A stretch of 40,105 nt of DNA from an uncultured Bacilli bacterium (GTDB lineage: Bacteria > Bacillota_I > Bacilli_A > RF39 > UBA660), in contig CANPXU010000008.1 of assembly GCA_947586825.1 (NCBI GenBank), positions 1 to 40,105 on the forward strand, given 5' to 3'. The notes beneath the pieces are model-generated. The model searched no databases. It worked only from the letters and a program-made list of their open reading frames with translations, and was not told the origin of the DNA. The first letter of the stretch is position 1; each line of letters starts with the position of its first letter. Both the position numbers and the translations under genes were made by a program. Shown piece after piece: positions 1-40,105 of this stretch.

Positions 1-20
1 CTCTGTCAATTTACGTGAAG
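1..20 (-). repeat. Right end of the inverted-repeat/poly-T element (partial copy)
   Basis: Bases 4-20 are identical to 32254-32270, the right end of the complete element behind rplT (17 of 17 bases, TGTCAATTTACGTGAAG on the plus strand). Here it lies 10 bases behind the efp stop codon; there it lies 5 bases behind the rplT stop codon. The rest of this copy would lie outside the window. Confidence 0.8.
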
Positions 21-10651: not shown

Positions 10652-10668
10652 TAGAGTCTACTTGTAAT

Positions 10669-10803
10669 TTAGTAATAAGCTCCCAAGCTAGAATTAAATA
10701 TTTTTTCATACGAATATAATTTATGAAAATTTAATTTATAATTATAAGTCTTATCTTTATTATTATCAAAGTAAATTGAAATAAAAATATCATCATTTAT
10801 ATC
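10669..10803 (-). pseudogene. Remnant of the 3' end of an HTH membrane regulator gene
   Basis: The minus strand encodes 44 residues ending FHKLYSYEKIFNSSLGAYY and then a stop. This matches the end of the intact 233-aa regulator at 12317-13018 (FHKLYAYEKIFNSSLGAYY, 18 of 19 identical). The whole DNA-binding domain and membrane segment are missing; the remnant is joined directly to a copy of the terminator at 10813-10840. There is no start codon or Shine-Dalgarno, so it is a fossil of a duplicated gene. Confidence 0.8.
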
Positions 10804-10840: not shown

Positions 10841-10844
10841 ATTA

Positions 10845-10904
10845 TTAATTTCTTAATAGTACTAAATTTTCCGGTAATTCCATAGAATCATTTATTATAA
10901 TAAA
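10845..10904 (-). pseudogene. Remnant of the 3' end of the lipoprotein gene
   Basis: Encodes NDSMELPENLVLLRN followed by TAA, identical to the last 15 residues of the 288-aa lipoprotein (13088-13954), in the same position relative to its terminator. Only the tail remains, and it directly follows the stop codon of the 251-aa secreted protein. Confidence 0.8.
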
Positions 10905-12300: not shown

Positions 12301-12316
12301 CCTCTCTAATTGTATT

Positions 12317-13018
12317 TTAATAATAAGCTCCCAAGCTAGAATTAAATATTTTTTCATAAGCATATAATTTATGAAATTTTAATTCATAAGTATAGTTTTT
12401 ATCGCCATAACTGATAGTAATAAATAGATTATTAGAAATATCAAAATCTTTATTAAAATGAATACTATCACTTTTTCTTTCTATGATATAAATATTATCT
12501 TGATATTTATTTCGATAAATAGATACCTTACTATCTTGAGATGATTTGTAGTATACATTTATATTATACTCGGCTTCTACTGGCGGAGTTATAGTACCTA
12601 ATTTTAATATATATTCATCACCTGTTTCAATAAATATTGAATCGCTCATACTAATAACATCACTATCAATACTAGCATAATAAACATTTATTTTATTCCG
12701 ATTTATTATTAGTACTGATGCTATTATTGGCATAACAATACACAATATTATTAAAAAAATTATTAAGACTCTTTTAATTATTATTTTACTTTTATCTAAA
12801 ACAATTTTTCTATCATAAAATTCTCTTTTTAATTGTTCAAAATTAATATCCAGCTCTTCGCACAAAGATTTTAATACCAAAATATCTGGCTTATTCTTAT
12901 CTTTTTCCCAATTAGCTATAGACTGCTGTGTAGTATTAATAATGTTTGCTAAAGCATTTTGACTTAAGTTATGTTTTTTTCTTGCTTCTTTGATAATAGT
13001 TCCTAAACTTTCCTTCAT
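12317..13018 (-). CDS. Membrane-anchored Cro/C1-type HTH regulator
   Basis: A 233-residue protein with an N-terminal XRE-family helix-turn-helix (about residues 8-62: IIKEARKKHNLSQNALANIINTTQQSIANWEKDKNKPD), a basic linker, one membrane helix near residues 86-108 (KRVLIIFLIILCIVMPIIASVLII), and a beta-rich domain of about 120 residues that would lie outside the cell. This layout suggests a one-component sensor that reads an external cue and acts on DNA directly. It has its own promoter (TGTTATAAT at 13036-13044). The tail is duplicated at 10669-10803. The target is unknown; neighbouring envelope genes are the best guess. Confidence 0.85.
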   Translation of the reverse strand: MKESLGTIIKEARKKHNLSQNALANIINTTQQSIANWEKDKNKPDILVLKSLCEELDINFEQLKREFYDRKIVLDKSKIIIKRVLIIFLIILCIVMPIIASVLIINRNKINVYYASIDSDVISMSDSIFIETGDEYILKLGTITPPVEAEYNINVYYKSSQDSKVSIYRNKYQDNIYIIERKSDSIHFNKDFDISNNLFITISYGDKNYTYELKFHKLYAYEKIFNSSLGAYY

Positions 13019-13081: not shown

Positions 13082-13087
13082 CCTTTA

Positions 13088-13954
13088 TTAATTTCTTAAT
13101 AATACTAAATTCTCAGGTAATTCCATAGAATCATTTGGATATAATAAATTATGAATTTTAGTTGCTAAATCAATATATGTTTCATATAAGCTTTCTTGTT
13201 CATTTAAAGTAGCATCTAAATGGCCAAATAATTCAAGCCATATGTTCATATCATAAATATCTGTAGGAGCTAAAGATAAAACATATAAATTTTCGAGTTC
13301 ATCTAAATAAACATCAATACTTGCTCCAGTTTTATTCATATCTTCTTTAATGCGAAGATATGCTGGATCATCTTTAAACATTTCATCTAATGCTTCTTCA
13401 ATAGGCATTGGTGTAACTTCTTTTAAAGCCTCTAAAATAGTAGGACAAACTAGCTTATCAAATTCATTTAAGCTATGCTCTTCAGCACACGTACATAAAT
13501 GTGTAACAGCAGCTAAAGGATAATATAGATAATATGCATTTTGCATTTCACTTAAAGTACTTTGTAAAGTTCCTACTGTTTGTTCATATTCTTCATCAGA
13601 TAGTCCCATAGGATAAGCGGCATATACTACGACATTTTTAAGTTCTTCTTGAACTTTACTATCATTAATATCAACTGATTTATTTTTTAAATTATCAAAG
13701 GTAGCTTTAGATACCTCTAAATTGGTATATTCTTCGGGAGTTTCTAATACCTCTTCGATATTTTCATCAGGAAGACTATCTAAATAACTATAATATTCTG
13801 CTAACTTATCATTAGTTGTTCCCTCAAAGGATGTTATTGCACTTTCTGTAGGTGCTACAGGTGCATTTATCTCATCTGAATTTGCACAACCTGGTATCAT
13901 ACCAAAAGCAATTGATGCACTTAAAAGAAAAGATAATAATTTTTTAGGTTTCAT
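13088..13954 (-). CDS. Lipoprotein of unknown function
   Basis: A 288-residue protein with a lipoprotein signal: MKPKKLLSFLLSASIAFG followed by MIPGC, where Cys23 would be lipidated (Pro at the -2 position is unusual). The mature protein is acidic and almost entirely helical (for example NDKLAEYYSYLDSLPDENIEEVLETPEEY), with a Cys pair at HLCTCAEEH. No family was recognised. It has its own strong promoter (13992-14019) and terminator. The last 15 residues are duplicated at 10845-10904. Its position upstream of the membrane HTH regulator suggests a shared envelope function. Confidence 0.8.
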   Translation of the reverse strand: MKPKKLLSFLLSASIAFGMIPGCANSDEINAPVAPTESAITSFEGTTNDKLAEYYSYLDSLPDENIEEVLETPEEYTNLEVSKATFDNLKNKSVDINDSKVQEELKNVVVYAAYPMGLSDEEYEQTVGTLQSTLSEMQNAYYLYYPLAAVTHLCTCAEEHSLNEFDKLVCPTILEALKEVTPMPIEEALDEMFKDDPAYLRIKEDMNKTGASIDVYLDELENLYVLSLAPTDIYDMNIWLELFGHLDATLNEQESLYETYIDLATKIHNLLYPNDSMELPENLVLLRN

Positions 13955-21314: not shown

Positions 21315-22088
21315 TTAGCAATGTACATTATCAACAGATATTGTACCTGCAAATGTCTTACCCATTAATTTAGTTTGATCTTTATTTAAATTGTAGAATT
21401 TTACTGTGAAAGTATAATTATGATAAGTAGGGTTTGAAGTACTAACACTTGTGATTTGTTGTCCTTCCTTTAATACTAAAACCTTTTTATCACTATCACC
21501 ATTCTTTAATTTAAACTCATCAATGTTAGTTTCGGTTATTTCTTCATATGTTCCAGTTCTATCTCCTGATGATTCTCCAACACCAGCACTTATGTCGCCC
21601 TCAATTGTTAGTTCTTTAAAGCCAGTAGAAACACCGCCTTCAGTTCTAATATAATATTCAGATGGATGTTCACTGCCAGTAGCCTCTGCATTTTCAGCTT
21701 CTTCAGCAAAGTTGGTTTTACTCTTATCATCCCAAGTAAATATTACATCATAAGTACATGTTGTTTCTTTATCATTTTCAGAAGCTAGTAAAGTAACGTT
21801 CAATGTAGAATTATCTGTTAGGCCAGAATCATATGTTCCATTAGCAGTTTGTTGACTACCATCACCTGCATCATTTTGTTGCATTTCAACTGAGTCAACA
21901 GTAATATTAATTCCTTTTCCCGCTGTTGCAACGAAAGCTGCAGTACTTTTTGAAGTATTAACATTTACTCCTACATTACTGTTTGTATTAATATTTGAAG
22001 CAAAGTATGCAAATGTAGCTCCTACTACAGCTACTAGTAAAGTAGCAATTGCAATTATTGATAATAATATTGTATTTCTTTTTTCCAT
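21315..22088 (-). CDS. TasA/camelysin-like secreted protein, copy 3 of the tandem cluster
   Basis: A 257-residue protein starting at 22088, where GGAGG lies 5 bases upstream. The N-terminus is the SipW-type signal found in TasA/CalY proteins (KRNTILLSIIAIATLLVAVVG then ATFAYFAS). The mature part is a predicted beta-sandwich rich in Thr, Asn and Ser. It has one internal Cys (ETTCTYDVIFTW) and a C-terminal Cys (VDNVHC), positions shared by both paralogues, so a disulfide that staples the C-terminus is likely. Related proteins form biofilm fibres; no sipW gene is in the window. It is last in a three-gene tandem array. Confidence 0.82.
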   Translation of the reverse strand: MEKRNTILLSIIAIATLLVAVVGATFAYFASNINTNSNVGVNVNTSKSTAAFVATAGKGINITVDSVEMQQNDAGDGSQQTANGTYDSGLTDNSTLNVTLLASENDKETTCTYDVIFTWDDKSKTNFAEEAENAEATGSEHPSEYYIRTEGGVSTGFKELTIEGDISAGVGESSGDRTGTYEEITETNIDEFKLKNGDSDKKVLVLKEGQQITSVSTSNPTYHNYTFTVKFYNLNKDQTKLMGKTFAGTISVDNVHC

Positions 22089-22104
22089 CGTAACCTCCAT
22101 TTTA

Positions 22105-22899
22105 TTAGCAAACTACATTTTCAACTGAAATGTGAGCTTTAAAATTCTTATCCATTAATGATGATTGATCTGTTGGTAAATTGTAGAATTTAATAGTAAA
22201 TTGATATTTAACATTGGCGTTAGTTGAAGTAGCTAAAGTCTCGCCTTCTTTAAGCATTAACTTTTGACAGTCTTGAAGATTTTCTTTACCATCAGCACAA
22301 GTAATAGTATCTAGGTTTTTCTCTTCTAAGAATTCACCAGATGTAGGTTTGCCTACTTCAGTACCACTTACTGTTTCACTACCAGATATAGTAAATTCTT
22401 TAAATGTAGGGGTATAATATTGACTTTCTCCCGGAATTTCCGTTCTAACATAGTATTTTGAAGGATAAATATTTTGGCTATTTACTTTACTTGTAGCATC
22501 AGATACAGAAGTACTAAAATCTGAACTTGTGTTATCCCAAACCCAAACTACGTCATATGTACATTCAGTTATTTTACCTTGGTCTGATGCAGTTAAGTTA
22601 ACACTTAAATTAGCAGTTTTTACTAATTCATTAGCTACATCTCCATTACTTGATGTAGTATCGCTTCCATTACCAGCATAAGCTTGTTGCATCATATATG
22701 AAGCAACATTAAGGCTGATAGATTCTGTAGATTCCGCAGTAAATACAGTCTTATTGTTTGATGTTTTAGCATTAAAATCAATATTTCCATTGCTTGTATT
22801 AATATTTGAAGCAAAATATGCAAATGTAGCACCAGCTACAGCGATTAATAAAGTAGCAATTGCAATAACCGTTAATAATATAGTATTTCTTTTTTCCAT
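22105..22899 (-). CDS. TasA/camelysin-like secreted protein, copy 2 of the tandem cluster
   Basis: 264 residues with the same signal region as its neighbours (MEKRNTILLTVIAIATLLIA, then GATFAYFASNIN). It shares the internal Cys (TECTYDVVWVW) and the C-terminal Cys (VENVVC), and has an extra Cys pair in a loop (DTITCADGKENLQDCQKL) that the other two lack. The motif VKYQFTIKFYNLPTDQ near the end matches the other copies (KFYNL). The gaps to its neighbours are 16 and 26 bases, so the three form one transcript. Confidence 0.82.
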   Translation of the reverse strand: MEKRNTILLTVIAIATLLIAVAGATFAYFASNINTSNGNIDFNAKTSNNKTVFTAESTESISLNVASYMMQQAYAGNGSDTTSSNGDVANELVKTANLSVNLTASDQGKITECTYDVVWVWDNTSSDFSTSVSDATSKVNSQNIYPSKYYVRTEIPGESQYYTPTFKEFTISGSETVSGTEVGKPTSGEFLEEKNLDTITCADGKENLQDCQKLMLKEGETLATSTNANVKYQFTIKFYNLPTDQSSLMDKNFKAHISVENVVC

Positions 22900-22925
22900 A
22901 ATAATTTTTCCTTACTTTCTAATAA

Positions 22926-23714
22926 TTAACATACAACATTAGCAATACTTACCGTACCACTAAAGGTCTTGCCAATTAATTTATCTTGATTAGTTCCTAA
23001 ATTATAAAATTTAATTGTTACTAAATAATCAACGTGACTCGCCTCAGTACTACTTGAACTTGTAATTGTCTCACCAGATTTTAAAATAAGTGTTTTGTTA
23101 GTATTATCTTTTTCAGATCTTTTCAATTCATCAAGATTTGTTTCAACAAGGGATGAAGCATTAAAACCTTGTTCTGGTGCAGAATTTCCAACATATACTG
23201 CAGTGTGGTCAAGCTCTATAGTAAATTCTTTAAAGCCTTCATTTTGTCCTTCTTGAGATCTAATATAATATTTAGATGGATAATAACTGCTTCCTGCAGA
23301 AGTAGTAGCGGAACTCACATCATCATCAGTAAAATTACTTTCAGATCCTGTCCAAGTATAAACGACATCATAAGAGCAAGTTGTTAGCTTATCATCACCT
23401 GTACCTGTTAATGAAACATTTAATGTCGCATTAGCAGTTAATAAATTTGCTATTTCTTCATTATTCGAAGGGGTTAAGTTATCTTGTGTTGCATATGATT
23501 CTTGCATCATATAAGCTTCAACATTTAGATTTAAATTACCACTTGCTGTTGCAATAAATGAAGCAGTTTTATTTGATGTATTAACACTAACTCCAACATT
23601 ACCATTTTTAGTATTAATGTTTGAAGCAAAGTATGCAAATGTAGCTCCAACCACGGCTACTAATAAAGTTGCTATTGCTATAACGGTCAGTAGTATAGTA
23701 TTTTTCTTTTCCAT
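22926..23714 (-). CDS. TasA/camelysin-like secreted protein, copy 1 of the tandem cluster
   Basis: 262 residues from the ATG at 23714, chosen because GCGAGGG lies 8 bases upstream and because the product then starts MEKKNTILLTV like its paralogues. SipW-type signal ending GATFAYFASNIN, internal Cys (TTCSYDVVYTW), conserved KEFTIELD and KFYNLGTNQDKLIGKTFSG, and C-terminal Cys (IANVVC). First gene of the cluster, behind a TTGACA/TATAAT promoter. Function in a surface fibre or biofilm is inferred from the family. Confidence 0.82.
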   Translation of the reverse strand: MEKKNTILLTVIAIATLLVAVVGATFAYFASNINTKNGNVGVSVNTSNKTASFIATASGNLNLNVEAYMMQESYATQDNLTPSNNEEIANLLTANATLNVSLTGTGDDKLTTCSYDVVYTWTGSESNFTDDDVSSATTSAGSSYYPSKYYIRSQEGQNEGFKEFTIELDHTAVYVGNSAPEQGFNASSLVETNLDELKRSEKDNTNKTLILKSGETITSSSSTEASHVDYLVTIKFYNLGTNQDKLIGKTFSGTVSIANVVC

Positions 23715-23741
23715 AAATTTTATCCCTCGCATTATACTTAA

Positions 23742-29331: not shown

Positions 29332-30576
29332 TTAATTGTCAAAAAAGTATCCATATATTTTTCCAAGTAATGAATTATCAGATATATTTACTCTTTTATG
29401 TGCCCCTCCGAATTCTTCTTGTTCATCTAATGAGAAAATTGAATATTCAGCATTTCTCATTTTTAAGCGACTATTATAGTATTTTATCATACCAAGTGCT
29501 ACGGAATATTTATTATGTCTTGCCCCAATTTCTGATGTATTTCCAACAATGCCTTTAGTACCAAAGACGCTTTCTAGGAAATTTGAAAATGAGCCAAGTT
29601 CACTTATTCCTCCTGAAACTATTATATAACTAATTTCTTTCTTTGTTAAGAGGTTAATTTGTTTTTTAATTAAATTAAATATCTCATTTAACCTTGAAAG
29701 AGCTACAGCACTTACGTCATATTGACTTACCTTTATGCTTTCACCATTAACATCTTCAAGCATAACACTTTCCGAAGGTTGAGCTATATGTAAGTCAGCT
29801 ACAACAAGCTTTTCTTTTAAATAAGTAGCATCTTTCTTAGATACCTTAAAGATATAAGCAATATCACTATCTATTGTACTTGACCCAATATCTATAACTT
29901 CACAAGAAGTAAGGATTCCTTTGTTAAAAATTGAAACTGTTGTACTACTACTTCCTAAATTAACAACAGCCCCGACTTCATGATTAGTGTCTTCATTTCT
30001 AAACTCATAGTAATCTGCTAAAGGAGACACAATAATATCCACTACTTTAATCTTAAGTTTTTCAAGAGATTTGAGAATTGCTTCAGCATTCTTTTTGGGT
30101 ATCACAACCGCTACATCATTAACTGTTAGTTTATTAGCTACCATCCCTATAGGGTTTGCTACTGTTTCTTCATCATTAATGATATATTTCGTAGGCAAGA
30201 TAGAAACAAGTTCTTGATTATCATTTATCTTATTATAGACACTTCCTTGCATTGCATGAGTTACATCACTATGTTTTATTATTTTGTCCTCACTTGTTAT
30301 TGTAGTAGATCCACTGGAAATAAAACAATCAAGATTATAGCAAGGAACACTAACTAAAACTTCTTTGATAGGTATTCCTATCATCTCTTCAGTCTTTGAG
30401 AAAGCTTCTTTTAATGCTAATTCAGCGCTTTCCGAATTTACTATAAATCCTTTTTTAATACCGCCAGATAAGACATCAACACATGATAAAACATTAAGCT
30501 TATTTTTTTGAATTTCTCCAACAATAAGTTTAATTGAATAAGAACCAATATCTAAACTAGCAAATATCTTTCTCAT
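29332..30576 (-). CDS. ftsA: Cell division protein FtsA
   Basis: The actin-like protein that tethers FtsZ to the membrane. The 414-residue product begins IFASLDIGSYSIKLIVGEI (phosphate-1 motif), contains the 1C insert of FtsA-type proteins, phosphate-2 VGAVVNLGSSSTTVSIF, and the adenosine motif SYIIVSGGISELGSF. It ends with a short amphipathic helix (SLLGKIYGYFFDN) for membrane binding. It has its own promoter (30597-30625). Confidence 0.95.
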   Translation of the reverse strand: MRKIFASLDIGSYSIKLIVGEIQKNKLNVLSCVDVLSGGIKKGFIVNSESAELALKEAFSKTEEMIGIPIKEVLVSVPCYNLDCFISSGSTTITSEDKIIKHSDVTHAMQGSVYNKINDNQELVSILPTKYIINDEETVANPIGMVANKLTVNDVAVVIPKKNAEAILKSLEKLKIKVVDIIVSPLADYYEFRNEDTNHEVGAVVNLGSSSTTVSIFNKGILTSCEVIDIGSSTIDSDIAYIFKVSKKDATYLKEKLVVADLHIAQPSESVMLEDVNGESIKVSQYDVSAVALSRLNEIFNLIKKQINLLTKKEISYIIVSGGISELGSFSNFLESVFGTKGIVGNTSEIGARHNKYSVALGMIKYYNSRLKMRNAEYSIFSLDEQEEFGGAHKRVNISDNSLLGKIYGYFFDN

Positions 30577-30729: not shown

Positions 30730-32136
30730 TTATTTCAACACTATTTTATATGGCCTCATCATACTACCATCTGTAGTACCATCTGCTTTTATTTTCACAT
30801 CAGACTTTAGGTAAAAAACAGGTCGGACGCCAAAAGCAAGTGTTGTTGAATTATAGAAACGTACAGAAGAATTAAAACCAATACCAAATCCAAATACATC
30901 TGTTGGATGCCAGGTCCAACTTGAAATAGTCCATTCGTAAACACCATTAAATAACCAGTTAGTCACCATATTATTTTCATAGTTATAAGAATCTAATTTC
31001 ACAGTCCAATTCTTTTTATCATTTGCAAAAGCGTAATCATGGATATACATAAGTCCAATTTTGTGTTTTGCTTGGAGCCCTGCCCCCGTTGTATTTCCAT
31101 TTCCCTTTGTCGTTTCTACAACATACATTTCTTTGGGGATAAATGAAGCACTATTAGAACCGCCAACATTCCATTTTACTGTTTCTATTTTATCTATCCA
31201 TGTTATATCGTTTTTATTATTTTGGAGATATTTTATGTATTCATTATTTAAAGTTTCATTTAATGGTGCTTTTTTTATCATTCCATTATCTTCTTTCTCC
31301 CAATAATTATAATGTTCATCAGACCACATATTATCTTCAGAGTTCCAGTAAAAACCATATTCTATTTCCGGCGTGTGTACTCTGGCTATATTTTCATACT
31401 CATTAGAATCATTATATTTATATTTTCCTTTCAAAGCATTCTCTCCCATTTGTTCTGGAGTTGCATATTCACTTTGGATAAGTTTTACTAAATTTTGTTT
31501 TTCTCCTGTAGATATTTCAACTGGTACTATTCCTATGATTCGGTAAAGATTTTTAAAATCACAACCATTTGATTTATCCTTGCTATAATCTTCTGCTCCC
31601 GGCCCAAAACAAACAAAGTTATTAGGATTATCTCCAGAATAACGATAGCCATTATCACCTGCTCCATCTTTTAGCAATGAATTATGATGGTAAAGATATC
31701 CATCTCCATCAGCAAATTCTGCTTCTGCATTATTATCTAAACTTTTTATGCATTCTACTAAATCATCTCTTACTTCACAATTATCAAATACTGATGGCTT
31801 TTTTGGTTCAAAATATAAAGTGCATCTATCATTTTCATTACTTGTTAAAAGCACTGTATGTTTTTCATTATCCCAGTTTAATAAGAAAGGTGCACTATCT
31901 CCGTTACAGCTGCTTTTTTCTTTGTCTAAGACATAATCTGCATATTTGTCACTTAACCAATCCTCACCGCTTCCTGTAACTTCGCCATTATCGGTCTCAA
32001 AAATAAAAGTTAGATTTTGATCATTTATGTTAATATTTCTTAAAGACTTATCTTTGAAATTTTTTAAACGCAGCATACAAATTACTATAGACAGAATAAT
32101 TAATAAAGTAATTATTATAGTTATTTTCTTCTTCAT
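30730..32136 (-). CDS. Modular secreted or membrane-anchored surface protein
   Basis: A 468-residue protein with an N-terminal hydrophobic segment (MKKKITIIITLLIILSIVIC). Next comes a module of about 60 residues with two Cys (SSCNGDSAPFLLNWDN, then SNENDRCTLYF) that also occurs in the LamG-like protein at 39270-40006. The long C-terminal domain begins DGDGYLYHHNSLL, contains CDFKNLYRIIGIVPVE and ends with FGVRPVFYLKSDVKI and PYKIVLK; this resembles FISUMP/DUF6273-type domains of gut Bacillota, but I am not sure of the family. The Shine-Dalgarno (GGAG, 5 bases from the ATG) lies inside a repeated inverted-repeat/poly-T element. Own terminator downstream. Confidence 0.82.
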   Translation of the reverse strand: MKKKITIIITLLIILSIVICMLRLKNFKDKSLRNININDQNLTFIFETDNGEVTGSGEDWLSDKYADYVLDKEKSSCNGDSAPFLLNWDNEKHTVLLTSNENDRCTLYFEPKKPSVFDNCEVRDDLVECIKSLDNNAEAEFADGDGYLYHHNSLLKDGAGDNGYRYSGDNPNNFVCFGPGAEDYSKDKSNGCDFKNLYRIIGIVPVEISTGEKQNLVKLIQSEYATPEQMGENALKGKYKYNDSNEYENIARVHTPEIEYGFYWNSEDNMWSDEHYNYWEKEDNGMIKKAPLNETLNNEYIKYLQNNKNDITWIDKIETVKWNVGGSNSASFIPKEMYVVETTKGNGNTTGAGLQAKHKIGLMYIHDYAFANDKKNWTVKLDSYNYENNMVTNWLFNGVYEWTISSWTWHPTDVFGFGIGFNSSVRFYNSTTLAFGVRPVFYLKSDVKIKADGTTDGSMMRPYKIVLK

Positions 32137-32141
32137 AAGCT

Positions 32142-32270
32142 CTCCGTGTAAATTGACAAAAACTAGTCATTTTTCTATCCTTGATTTTCTTCATTTTCTC
32201 AAAAAAAAAAAAAAAAAAAAACAAGGTCTTGCGCTTAAAATCTTGTTTTTCTTTGTCAATTTACGTGAAG
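32142..32270. repeat. Inverted-repeat/poly-T element, complete copy (129 bp)
   Basis: Ends CTTCACGTAAATTGACAAA (minus, 32270-32252) and, inverted, UUUGUCAAUUUACACGGAG as RNA (32160-32142); 17 of 19 positions can pair. Inside are a 9-bp hairpin (32217-32225 with 32242-32250) and 21 consecutive A on the plus strand (32201-32221). The 59 bases at 32142-32200 match 40014-40072 with 6 differences, and 32254-32270 match 4-20 exactly. The element follows rplT by 5 bases and supplies the Shine-Dalgarno of the 468-aa surface protein. No target-site duplication was seen. Confidence 0.85.
32201..32250 (-). terminator. Terminator-like hairpin plus 21-T tract inside the element, behind rplT
   Basis: Minus-strand arms AAAAACAAG / CTTGTTTTT (weakly paired, 16-base loop) run into 21 T. 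It would end the infC-rpmI-rplT transcript, with efficiency perhaps depending on tract length. Confidence 0.6.
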
Positions 32271-32275
32271 CCTAA

Positions 32276-32872
32276 TTATTTTAAAGCTGCTAGTAATTCA
32301 TCTTTTTTCATAGTTGAATAACCTTTGATGTTTTTATCTTTAGCTAAAGCTTTAAGTTCTGCTAAAGTTTTTGAAGATAAATCTTCCTTTTTAGCTGCAG
32401 GTTTTGCAGCTTCTTTTTTAGGTTCTTCACCTTTTACTTCTTTCTTAGCTGGAGCTTTAGGAGCTTCAATCTTTACAGCTTCTTTTTTGCTTGTTGTAAT
32501 TTCTTTTTTAGGAGCTTCTGCAGGTGCTTTTTTAGCAGTTTCTACTAAAGCTGCAAATGCTTTAGGATCATCGATTGCAAGTTCTGATAACATCTTACGG
32601 TTAATTTCGATACCAGATTTAGCAAGACCATTTATGAATTTAGAATAACTAATATCATTTAAACGGCAAGCTGCATTAATTCTTGTAATCCATAATTTTC
32701 TAAAGTTTCTCTTATTTTGTTTACGGTCACGATAAGCATAAGCACCACTGTGGAATAATTGTTCTTGAGCAGTCTTATATAATCTATGCTTACTACCAAA
32801 ATAACCTTTAGCTTCTTTTAAAACTTTTCTTCTTCTGTTTTTAGAAACAGTTCCGCCTTTAACTCTTGTCAT
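32276..32872 (-). CDS. rplT: 50S ribosomal protein L20 with an added C-terminal Rho-N/SAP-like domain
   Basis: L20 binds 23S rRNA early in 50S assembly and controls its own operon. Residues 1 to about 117 are a complete L20 ([25 protein letters not shown] at the start in pieces, [22 protein letters not shown]). The family normally ends there. This protein has about 80 more residues: a Lys/Ala/Pro/Glu-rich linker, then [20 protein letters not shown] and [11 protein letters not shown], which fits the Rho N-terminal/SAP-type helical nucleic-acid-binding motif. Last gene of infC-rpmI-rplT; the repeated poly-T element follows the stop codon by 5 bases. Confidence 0.93.
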
Positions 32873-33796: not shown

Positions 33797-34846
33797 TTAT
33801 TCATTAGCGGTTTCTTTTTTACTTTTATCTTTTACTTTATTTGGCTTAAAGCCATAATGTTCTCTAATTTTATTTTCAAGTTCATCAGCTAGGCCAGGAT
33901 TTTGTTTTAATAATAAACGCACATTTTCCTTACCTTGGCCAATTTTCTCACCATTGTAGGCATACCATGCACCACTTTTTTCTAATATATCAATATCAGC
34001 GGCTAGATCAACAATTTCACCTTCCCGAGAAATTCCTTCACCATATAGAATATCAACAGTTGCCGTTTTAAATGGTGGTGCTACTTTATTTTTTACAACT
34101 TTTATATTGGTTTTATTACCACTTATTTGATCGGCCACTTTAATTTGTTCACCTTTTCTAACATCCAAACGAATAGATGAATAGAATTTTAAAGCTCTTC
34201 CTCCGGGAGTAGTTTCGGGATTTCCAAACATAATTCCAACCTTTTCTCTAAGTTGATTAATAAATATGGCCGTAGTTTTAGTTTTATTCATATTGCCAGA
34301 TAGTTTTCTTAAAGCTTGTGACATAAGTCTTGCTTGAAGTCCTACATGGCTATCACCCATTTCCCCATCAATTTCTGCTTGAGGAACTAGGGCTGCAACA
34401 GAGTCAATAACTATTAAATCAACTGCTTCGCTTTTAACTAAAGCGTCACATATTTCTAAAGCTTGTTCTCCAGTATCTGGTTGTGATAATAATAACTCAT
34501 TAATATCAACGCCAAGATTTCTAGCATATACAGGATCTAAGGCATGTTCAGCATCGATGAAAGCCGCTCTTCCACCGTTTTGTTGGACAGATGCTATCGC
34601 ATGTAAAGCAATAGTGGTTTTACCACTTGACTCAGGGCCAAATATTTCAATTATTCTTCCTTTGGGATATCCACCAACACCCAAGGCAATATCAAGTGAT
34701 AAGCTGCCTGAAGATGTTGTATCAATCTCCATATGCTCTTCAGAGCCTAGACGCATTATTGATTCTTCACCAAATTGTTTTTTTATATCAGCAAGGACTT
34801 GCTCTAAAGCCTTATCCTTGTCTTTTACTTCTTTGTTAATTTTCAT
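33797..34846 (-). CDS. recA: Recombinase RecA
   Basis: Strand-exchange protein for recombination and the SOS response. The 349-residue product has the N-terminal polymerisation motif, Walker [16 protein letters not shown], Walker [13 protein letters not shown], loop L1 ([25 protein letters not shown] in parts), loop L2 ([27 protein letters not shown] in parts) and the C-terminal domain. Own promoter at 34877-34905. A degenerate SOS-box-like sequence lies further upstream, but I do not count it as supported. Confidence 0.97.
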
Positions 34847-39269: not shown

Positions 39270-40006
39270 TTACTTATCAAATTTATACCATAATATTGGT
39301 TTGCCAGAAGCATCAGTAATTTTTAAGTTATAGATAAAGCCATGAAAATAAGCATCAGCGGTCCAATTTGACTTACCTAAAAAATTTTCAGTTCTATTAG
39401 TATTTCGAACATACGATGTTACATTATAAGTTTTGGTTAAAATCAAAGCATCATCTTTATAAATATTATGAGTATATGAAGTTTCATTTTTGATTACTTC
39501 TATCCGATAATGAGTCTTTTGATTTAAGGTTATCGCTGCACTTGCTGTAGTACTTCCTCGCGTTGCTTCCGTACCATAACGGCTATCAATGTTAAGATTG
39601 CTTGAAGTTCCTTGATTTGCAACAAAAATATTATCATTATATTGACCATTACCAAAATCCATAATTCTTGACCAGTTTTTAAATGACAACCATTTGGCCT
39701 CAAAATCAATTGTAGTACATTTATCGCTTTTATTGTTATCTAAACTAATATTTTCCGTTTCTTCATTCCAATGCAAAAATTCATCATCACAATTAGTTTT
39801 ATTATAATTATAAATATATCCCTCCCCAGGCCAATATTCCTCATTCCACACATGATAGTTATTACCACCACTTTCATCTTGAACCATTATAGCTAAGGCA
39901 TTTGAATTTGACTTAATAGTTGCCTTATTATTTTGCGTATAAAGAAAAATACAAAAAATTACTAAAATAATAACCAATATTGATATCAATATATTTTTTT
40001 CTTCAT
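39270..40006 (-). CDS. LamG/concanavalin-like surface protein with a frameshift at codons 3-5
   Basis: The natural start is the ATG at 40006-40004, 7 bases behind the GGAG carried by the repeated element. From it the frame reads MKKKIY and stops, because the run at 39994-40000 has seven A; eight (or five) would give MKKKNILISILVIILV, a normal membrane anchor that stays open to 39270. The open frame can otherwise begin only at a TTG at 40031 without a Shine-Dalgarno, or at an internal TTG. The rest has the two-Cys module shared with the 468-aa protein (TNCDDEFLHWNEE, then SDKC) and a LamG-like domain (SRIMDFGNGQYNDNIFVANQ, HYRIEVIKN, FHGFIYNLKITD). About 245 residues. Confidence 0.75.
39994..40000 (-). 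repeat. A7 homopolymer after the start codon of the LamG-like gene
   Basis: Seven T on the plus strand. One more base restores the frame between the ATG at 40006 and the body of the gene. Candidate phase-variation tract or sequencing indel. Confidence 0.6.
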
Positions 40007-40013
40007 ACTTAGC

Positions 40014-40105
<92 letters not shown>

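Follow-up and report, generated by a model that had tools for sequence, protein, structure and literature searches.

Comparison of the window, here meaning the whole 40,105-nucleotide stretch of DNA analysed, with the rest of its genome and with related genomes indicates that a dispersed element behind rplT is probably a composite expression module carried 5' of the genes of a surface-protein family, in which switching by a T-tract, masking by two arms and homogenisation among copies are combined. The element places a stem-loop and U-tract behind the upstream core gene and a ribosome binding site in front of the next gene, which always encodes an exported protein. In the proposed mechanism, the T-tract would also be the spacer between a -35 box (TTGNTT) and an extended -10 box (TGA-NANNAT), and slippage would shift their spacing into or out of the usable 16-18 bp, turning each gene on or off independently. 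In read-through transcripts the left arm would pair with the right arm and hide the Shine-Dalgarno sequence, so that only transcripts started in the element would be translated, and recombination between copies would also make it possible for sites to gain, lose or exchange cassettes (module plus gene). The most ambitious form of this reading gives one homopolymer two jobs, as U-tract of the core-gene terminator and as spacer of the surface-gene promoter, its length setting both read-through and initiation, within a module that has arms to silence read-through messages and that gene conversion has carried to about twenty loci, yielding a genome-wide combinatorial on/off surface repertoire in uncultured gut Bacilli; this is put forward tentatively, as an idea that could well prove wrong.

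The host genome (G000) is a metagenome-assembled genome (MAG) of an uncultured member of the Bacilli, with 1.196 Mb in 51 contigs and 82% completeness. The window is one entire contig of it (C8), which terminates within the repeats and also carries recA (33797-34846). The related named genomes are likewise MAGs of uncultured Bacilli, several from a 'Lapin' (rabbit) series and others from ruminants. All features of the complete copy lie on the minus strand, where the element (32142..32270) and its surface-type gene (30730..32136) sit between the upstream core gene rplT (32276..32872) and the downstream ftsA-like gene (29332..30576), the latter following immediately after rplT in G006, G002 and G005. 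The left arm CTTCACGTAAATTGACA (32254..32270) begins 5 nt past the rplT stop codon and is followed by the terminator stem-loop CAAGATTTTAAGCGCAAGACCTTG (32222..32245), whose stem CAAGATTTT..AAGACCTTG has one mismatch (a perfect stem CAAGATTTT..AAAATCTTG is found in many other copies) and leads into a tract of 21 T (32201..32221), at once the U-tract of the terminator and the proposed promoter spacer. After the -10 region and a conserved block comes the right arm TGTCAATTTACACGGAG (32142..32158), which terminates in the Shine-Dalgarno sequence GGAG; the ATG at 32136 follows after 5 nt. Pairing between the 17-nt arms extends over 15 of 17 positions, including one G-U, and the minus strand of the whole element folds at -31.9 kcal/mol (z = -3.8), with none of 200 shuffles as good. 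The inverted ends, internal hairpin, T21 and terminal ribosome binding site reported in the first-pass annotation are thus confirmed, with arms of 17 nt. The partial copies that it placed at both window ends are also real, and are there because many contigs start or end within a copy: a second copy is represented by its left arm only (4..20, minus strand), after efp (31-591), the contig ending within the element, and a third by its right part (40014..40105, minus strand), with a tract of 33 T up to the contig end and its right arm at 40014-40030. The surface gene of this third copy (39270..40006, minus strand) has a frame interrupted after codon 6: it begins (window 39930-40105) with ATGAAGAAAAAAATATATTGA, in which a stop after six codons stands beside an A7 run, the remainder being open in another frame, and this may reflect an assembly error, a pseudogene or a second slippage site.

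Searching the host genome returned 25 element matches, whole or partial, of which 12 span all or nearly all of its length at 77-100% identity, with E-values down to 4e-43 among matches other than self, far beyond chance. Many contigs break inside the element, and many copies lie at contig ends. The right end precedes the start of an exported-protein gene, recognised by its N-terminal signal or anchor, by about 5-12 nt in 18 of 18 host copies, and all 14 right ends examined among the 29 matches in G007 likewise lie in front of such a gene. Left ends begin mostly 2-19 nt past the stop codon of an upstream gene, named by sequence resemblance as rplT, efp, pnp, topA, recO, mnmA, a dnaI-like gene or thioredoxin, or belonging to a tandem surface gene; for instance, contigs C27, C33 and C37 read element-gene-element-gene, and C15 reads element-gene-element. 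The expectation that a wider search would find many copies in front of secreted-protein genes is therefore borne out, and sister species hold different genes at the same site. Left-arm remnants with no following surface gene were also seen (L026:2146, L027:4712, L075:5705, L190:564 and L192:4678), some of which keep the stem-loop, and these probably mark places from which cassettes were lost, the remnant being retained as a terminator.

The 468-aa protein of the window has an N-terminal membrane anchor and a shared domain (W60, Y68, S75, C77, C105), belongs to no Pfam family, and its predicted structure (mean pLDDT 72.5) matched no PDB entry at E 0.001 or lower. Most proteins behind copies share an N-terminal module consisting of a signal or anchor helix followed by ..AIMV..W(P)..Y.LN..S.C....C.LYFDK, with four invariant residues. 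Beyond this module, the variable parts of 23 proteins from three species include a glycine-rich ALK/LTK-type domain in three, SprB repeats in three, and, in single members each, a lectin-like laminin-G domain, GLUG motifs, a HINT/intein-like domain and DUF6273. A profile search with the N-terminal module found 24 members in the host, of which 16 carry the element, 6 do not and 2 are cut at contig ends, so that it is absent from 6 of the 22 assessable members; the family numbers 22-24 in the host and G007 versus 0-7 in relatives that lack the armed element. A second small exported family, of 136-139 aa, lies behind two further elements. By eye, several element-free members (L298, L299 and L302, on host contigs C31, C9 and C21) appear to face divergent regulator genes, probably of the helix-turn-helix type, which suggests a second mode of control.

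A stem-loop followed by a U-run, the signature of an intrinsic terminator, is present in the form of 8-9 bp stems of -5 to -8 kcal/mol in most copies, followed by 9 to 24 T. In the host, a stem of the CAAGATTTT..AAAATCTTG type enters the T-tract at nearly all copies, whereas G007 has CAAGATTA-GGAA-TAATCTTG instead; because the stem letters differ and both pair (GATTTT/AAAATC versus GATTA/TAATC), the stem itself is kept. At the element-free rplT-ftsA site of G006, rplT has its own terminator (AAGAAGGAAATCCTTCTTTTTT). The tract numbers 9-24 T in complete copies of the host and 17-23 in those of G007, counts which near 20 are unreliable, coming as they do from assembled metagenome consensus; in G007 this range is seen even though the left halves are 96% identical. 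Variation in tract length where the flanks are near-identical suggests, at the level of assembled sequence, slippage-driven phase variation. MutS is present in the genome, which does not favour high slippage, and loss of mismatch repair was accordingly rejected as its source. Across 274,822 bases of the host genome, scanned as stretches whose neighbours overlap slightly, every homopolymer of at least 10, of any base, falls inside an element, counting as elements two long-homopolymer copies with an AAAGGAG variant right end. All five genomes that have the module contain runs of 14 T, and none occurs in G001, G002, G005, G006 or G008. Long T-tracts in other Bacilli (G039, G057 and G051) lie mostly behind terminator-like sequence, and the module is not seen there.

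The strongest hint that the tract may be more than a U-tract is given by relatives in which parts of the element are missing. G003 and G004 lack both arms and keep TTGA-T(16-22)-GA-TATTAT (or TAGTAT, TAATAT), followed by a conserved GGAAAAATNAAGGGTA-like block, and at the dnaI site of the element-free G006 there is TTGAGT-TTTTCATTTATTTTTGA-GATAAT, with a 17-nt T-rich spacer containing no homopolymer, and then the right end TACATGGAGGCTA; for comparison, an ordinary promoter, ahead of ftsA, reads TTGATA-17-TATAAT. From the boxes in G003 and G004 and the 17-nt spacer in G006, the T-tract seems to occupy a promoter spacer. The placement of the homopolymer between -35 and -10 boxes is clear in G003 and G004 (TTGATT-T-GA-TATTAT), has a homologous 17-nt counterpart in G006, and would involve weaker boxes in the host (TTGTTT, GACAAT). 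In the window copy, the candidate -35 hexamer is TTGTTT (32219..32224, minus strand; TTGATT in G003 and G004) and the candidate extended -10 is TGA-GAAAAT (32193..32198, minus strand), the -10 varying as GACAAT in most copies, GATAAT in G009 and G006, and TATTAT in G003. The last T of the tract would supply the TG of the extended -10, and the spacing would equal the T count in G003 and G004 and the T count minus 1 in the host and G007. The window copy, with a predicted spacing of 20, would then be off in this assembly. A predicted spacing of 16-18 is reached by 3 of 12 complete copies in the host, 3 of 6 in G007 and 4 of 4 in G004, assembly counts that only illustrate what a mixed on/off state might look like. 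It speaks against the spacer reading that the -10 of the host (GACAAT/GAAAAT) is weak and that another candidate promoter, TTGAGA-19-TATAAA, is found a short way downstream. A conserved leader peptide (MGKMKGI..) after the tract was considered and rejected, its frame and start not being conserved in several copies (ATA and an in-frame TAA in C4; shifted in C33, C26 and C2). The terminator, the promoter around the T-tract and the six members without an element had escaped the first-pass annotation; its reading of the repeat as an expression cassette is supported.

With respect to the arms, folding of read-through RNA predicts pairing at 9-15 arm positions, with the Shine-Dalgarno sequence paired at a mean probability of 0.56-0.99 in 17 of 19 copies, while in RNA predicted to start inside the element it is mostly open. 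These folds are consistent with a model in which the arms may mask the Shine-Dalgarno sequence in read-through RNA only. Comparison of the arms across copies found no compensatory changes, position 9 being unpaired in G007 and C6, and compensatory evolution of the two arms was thus rejected.

Two other accounts of the tract have to be considered. It may serve only as the U-tract in a strong terminator and be conserved because the surface genes follow core genes that are highly expressed, with a promoter downstream (TTGAGA-19-TATAAA) and a length that is neutral or affects only read-through. Stem-loops do abut the tract at nearly all copies in the host, G009 and G007, unrelated Bacilli also have long T-tracts behind terminators, and a TATAAA-like box is found downstream in many copies. 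However, several tracts in G003 and G004 have no clear stem-loop and come after a separate terminator, yet are preceded by TTGA and followed by TATTAT-like boxes; moreover, the promoter at the same position in the element-free G006 has a 17-nt spacer, and the downstream box is poorly conserved (GATGAA, TACATA); this account is considered unlikely. The tract could instead lie upstream of the core promoter and tune its strength through the shape of the DNA upstream of -35, as in Helicobacter pylori sabA (PMC4081817). This precedent and the TTGAGA/TATAAA pair directly after the tract in the host and G007 speak for tuning of this kind, but the pair is spaced 19 bp and is missing in G003, where the start codon is too close, and we consider it rather improbable.

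It is also conceivable that the inverted ends are read by a transposase, and that a MITE-like element spread by transposition and became a leader secondarily. The 17-bp ends and the many dispersed copies would fit, but no target duplication is seen at the flanks, the orientation is always the same, the right end is fused to the Shine-Dalgarno sequence and ATG in all copies, and copies at random sites are lacking except for a few left-end remnants, so that the probability of such an origin appears very small; the transposon reading was rejected on orientation, ribosome binding site fusion and the missing target duplication. Among the element matches (the genome being 82% complete), none was a longer parent in which the same ends enclose an ORF, and pattern scans of named genomes and of viral contigs for the right half of the element gave no match. 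Only two tyrosine recombinases occur in the host, as open frames of 296 and 290 aa, a XerC/XerD size seen in most of the genus, including element-free relatives, and integrase-driven cassettes were rejected on this ground; a recombinase specific to the element was not found in the host.

Returning to the expression module as the preferred reading, its history can be followed at sites common to the host, G009 and G007, namely rplT-ftsA, before pcrA, after pnp, after the thioredoxin gene and next to trmL, along with others common to two of the three genomes (for example, one flanked by a 352-aa gene and a polC-like gene). Core flanks at shared sites are mostly 81-99% identical, whereas the resident surface proteins are at most about 46% identical or of a different type, and surface proteins that resemble each other turn up at different sites (host C26 and G009 C22, 69% over 144 aa). 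The pnp-rmuC site of G009 has one cassette; in the host, a cassette comes after pnp, then an additional element at the end of the contig, and a second contig opens with a cassette that reaches to rmuC, so that the host site probably holds two. In G006 the rplT-ftsA, pcrA and efp sites are empty, and the thioredoxin, mnmA, pnp-rmuC and dnaI sites hold surface-type genes without the T-tract module, which implies that some sites are old and others were gained (or lost in G006), with the module laid over them. The elements themselves evolve in concert: left halves are 96% identical within G007 versus 59% to the host, the within-minus-between difference in left-half identity is 0.27 against a permutation maximum of 0.13, and identity drops along the following gene (85, 75, 69, 62, 63 and 59%). 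Different surface genes at shared sites, together with concerted evolution, would imply recombination, and homologous (RecA-type) recombination between copies would be the simplest and most likely cause of the homogenisation. The earlier description of a recombining expression cassette is hence supported by the exported genes behind the copies, by concerted evolution and by site swapping; mobility in the transposon sense is not supported, given the lack of target-site duplication, the fixed orientation and position, the lack of an element-specific recombinase, and the several G006 sites that already have surface genes without the module.

Related designs are known from other bacteria. According to PMC10502178, citing Citti and Wise 1995, a homopolymeric adenine tract is present in the promoter region of every vlp gene of Mycoplasma hyorhinis; going by that account, the two systems share a surface lipoprotein-like gene family, a long-homopolymer promoter for each gene and a small-genome, low-GC host. 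Unlike vlp, the present element has its T-tract on the sense strand, its copies (about 20) are scattered behind core genes and do not form one cluster, it contains a built-in terminator and predicted masking arms, and its switching is inferred from sequence. Control of surface proteins, as in vlp and porA, is matched by the 18 of 18 host right ends that precede signal- or anchor-bearing genes, their surface location being predicted. Repeats between -10 and -35 underlie phase variation of Neisseria porA (poly-G) and Haemophilus hifA/B (TA) (PMC3899988), and promoter-spacer phase variation is described for Mycoplasma mycoides vmm in PMC10502178; as in these cases, repeat length would alter box spacing, but they concern single genes or one divergent pair and the element is a module repeated genome-wide. 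In sabA, an adhesin gene, a slippage-prone T-tract likewise adjoins a surface-gene promoter and acts as a rheostat from upstream of -35, whereas comparative evidence puts the tract of the element in the spacer. The vlhA family of Mycoplasma gallisepticum also has many members, each with a repeat-bearing promoter, but its variable GAA repeats (PMC6258824) are trinucleotides located upstream, not a homopolymer. Finally, like MITEs and integron attC cassettes, these are repeated segments with inverted ends, and element plus gene form a recurring, sometimes tandem, unit; unlike them, there is no target duplication, no integrase beyond the two Xer-size proteins, and the element is 5' and not 3' of the gene; tandem repeat-plus-gene cassettes are found here, attC at the 3' end and IntI are not. 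A limited literature search found no paper on such a module in this lineage. If the proposal is true, an uncultured lineage of Bacilli from the mammalian gut would have Mycoplasma-like surface switching, its roughly twenty switches acting independently from ordinary places in the chromosome. Tract lengths in metagenomic long reads would then give a direct readout of phase variation, and the system would be an example of how recombination can spread a regulatory module and keep it uniform even as the genes behind it are replaced.

Some further observations concern neighbouring or comparable genes. In G039, a genome of the same class (0.85 Mb), a lipoprotein-like gene (in L332) has CTTG-T16-GCAATAAT in front of it, which may represent a parallel T-tract promoter of a different family. 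The surface protein at L026:2223-3560 has the shared N-terminal module and a C-terminal end that looks like the HINT/intein-like domain known from one family member. Within the window, three tandem paralogues of 261, 264 and 268 aa (21315-23732) have a common N-terminal MEKRNTILL..ATFAYFASNINT region and no element in between, and two pairs of direct repeats at 89-94% (10657-10755 with 12305-12403, and 10842-10893 with 13085-13136) surround a helix-turn-helix regulator and small lipoprotein-like genes, in what looks like a decayed duplication.
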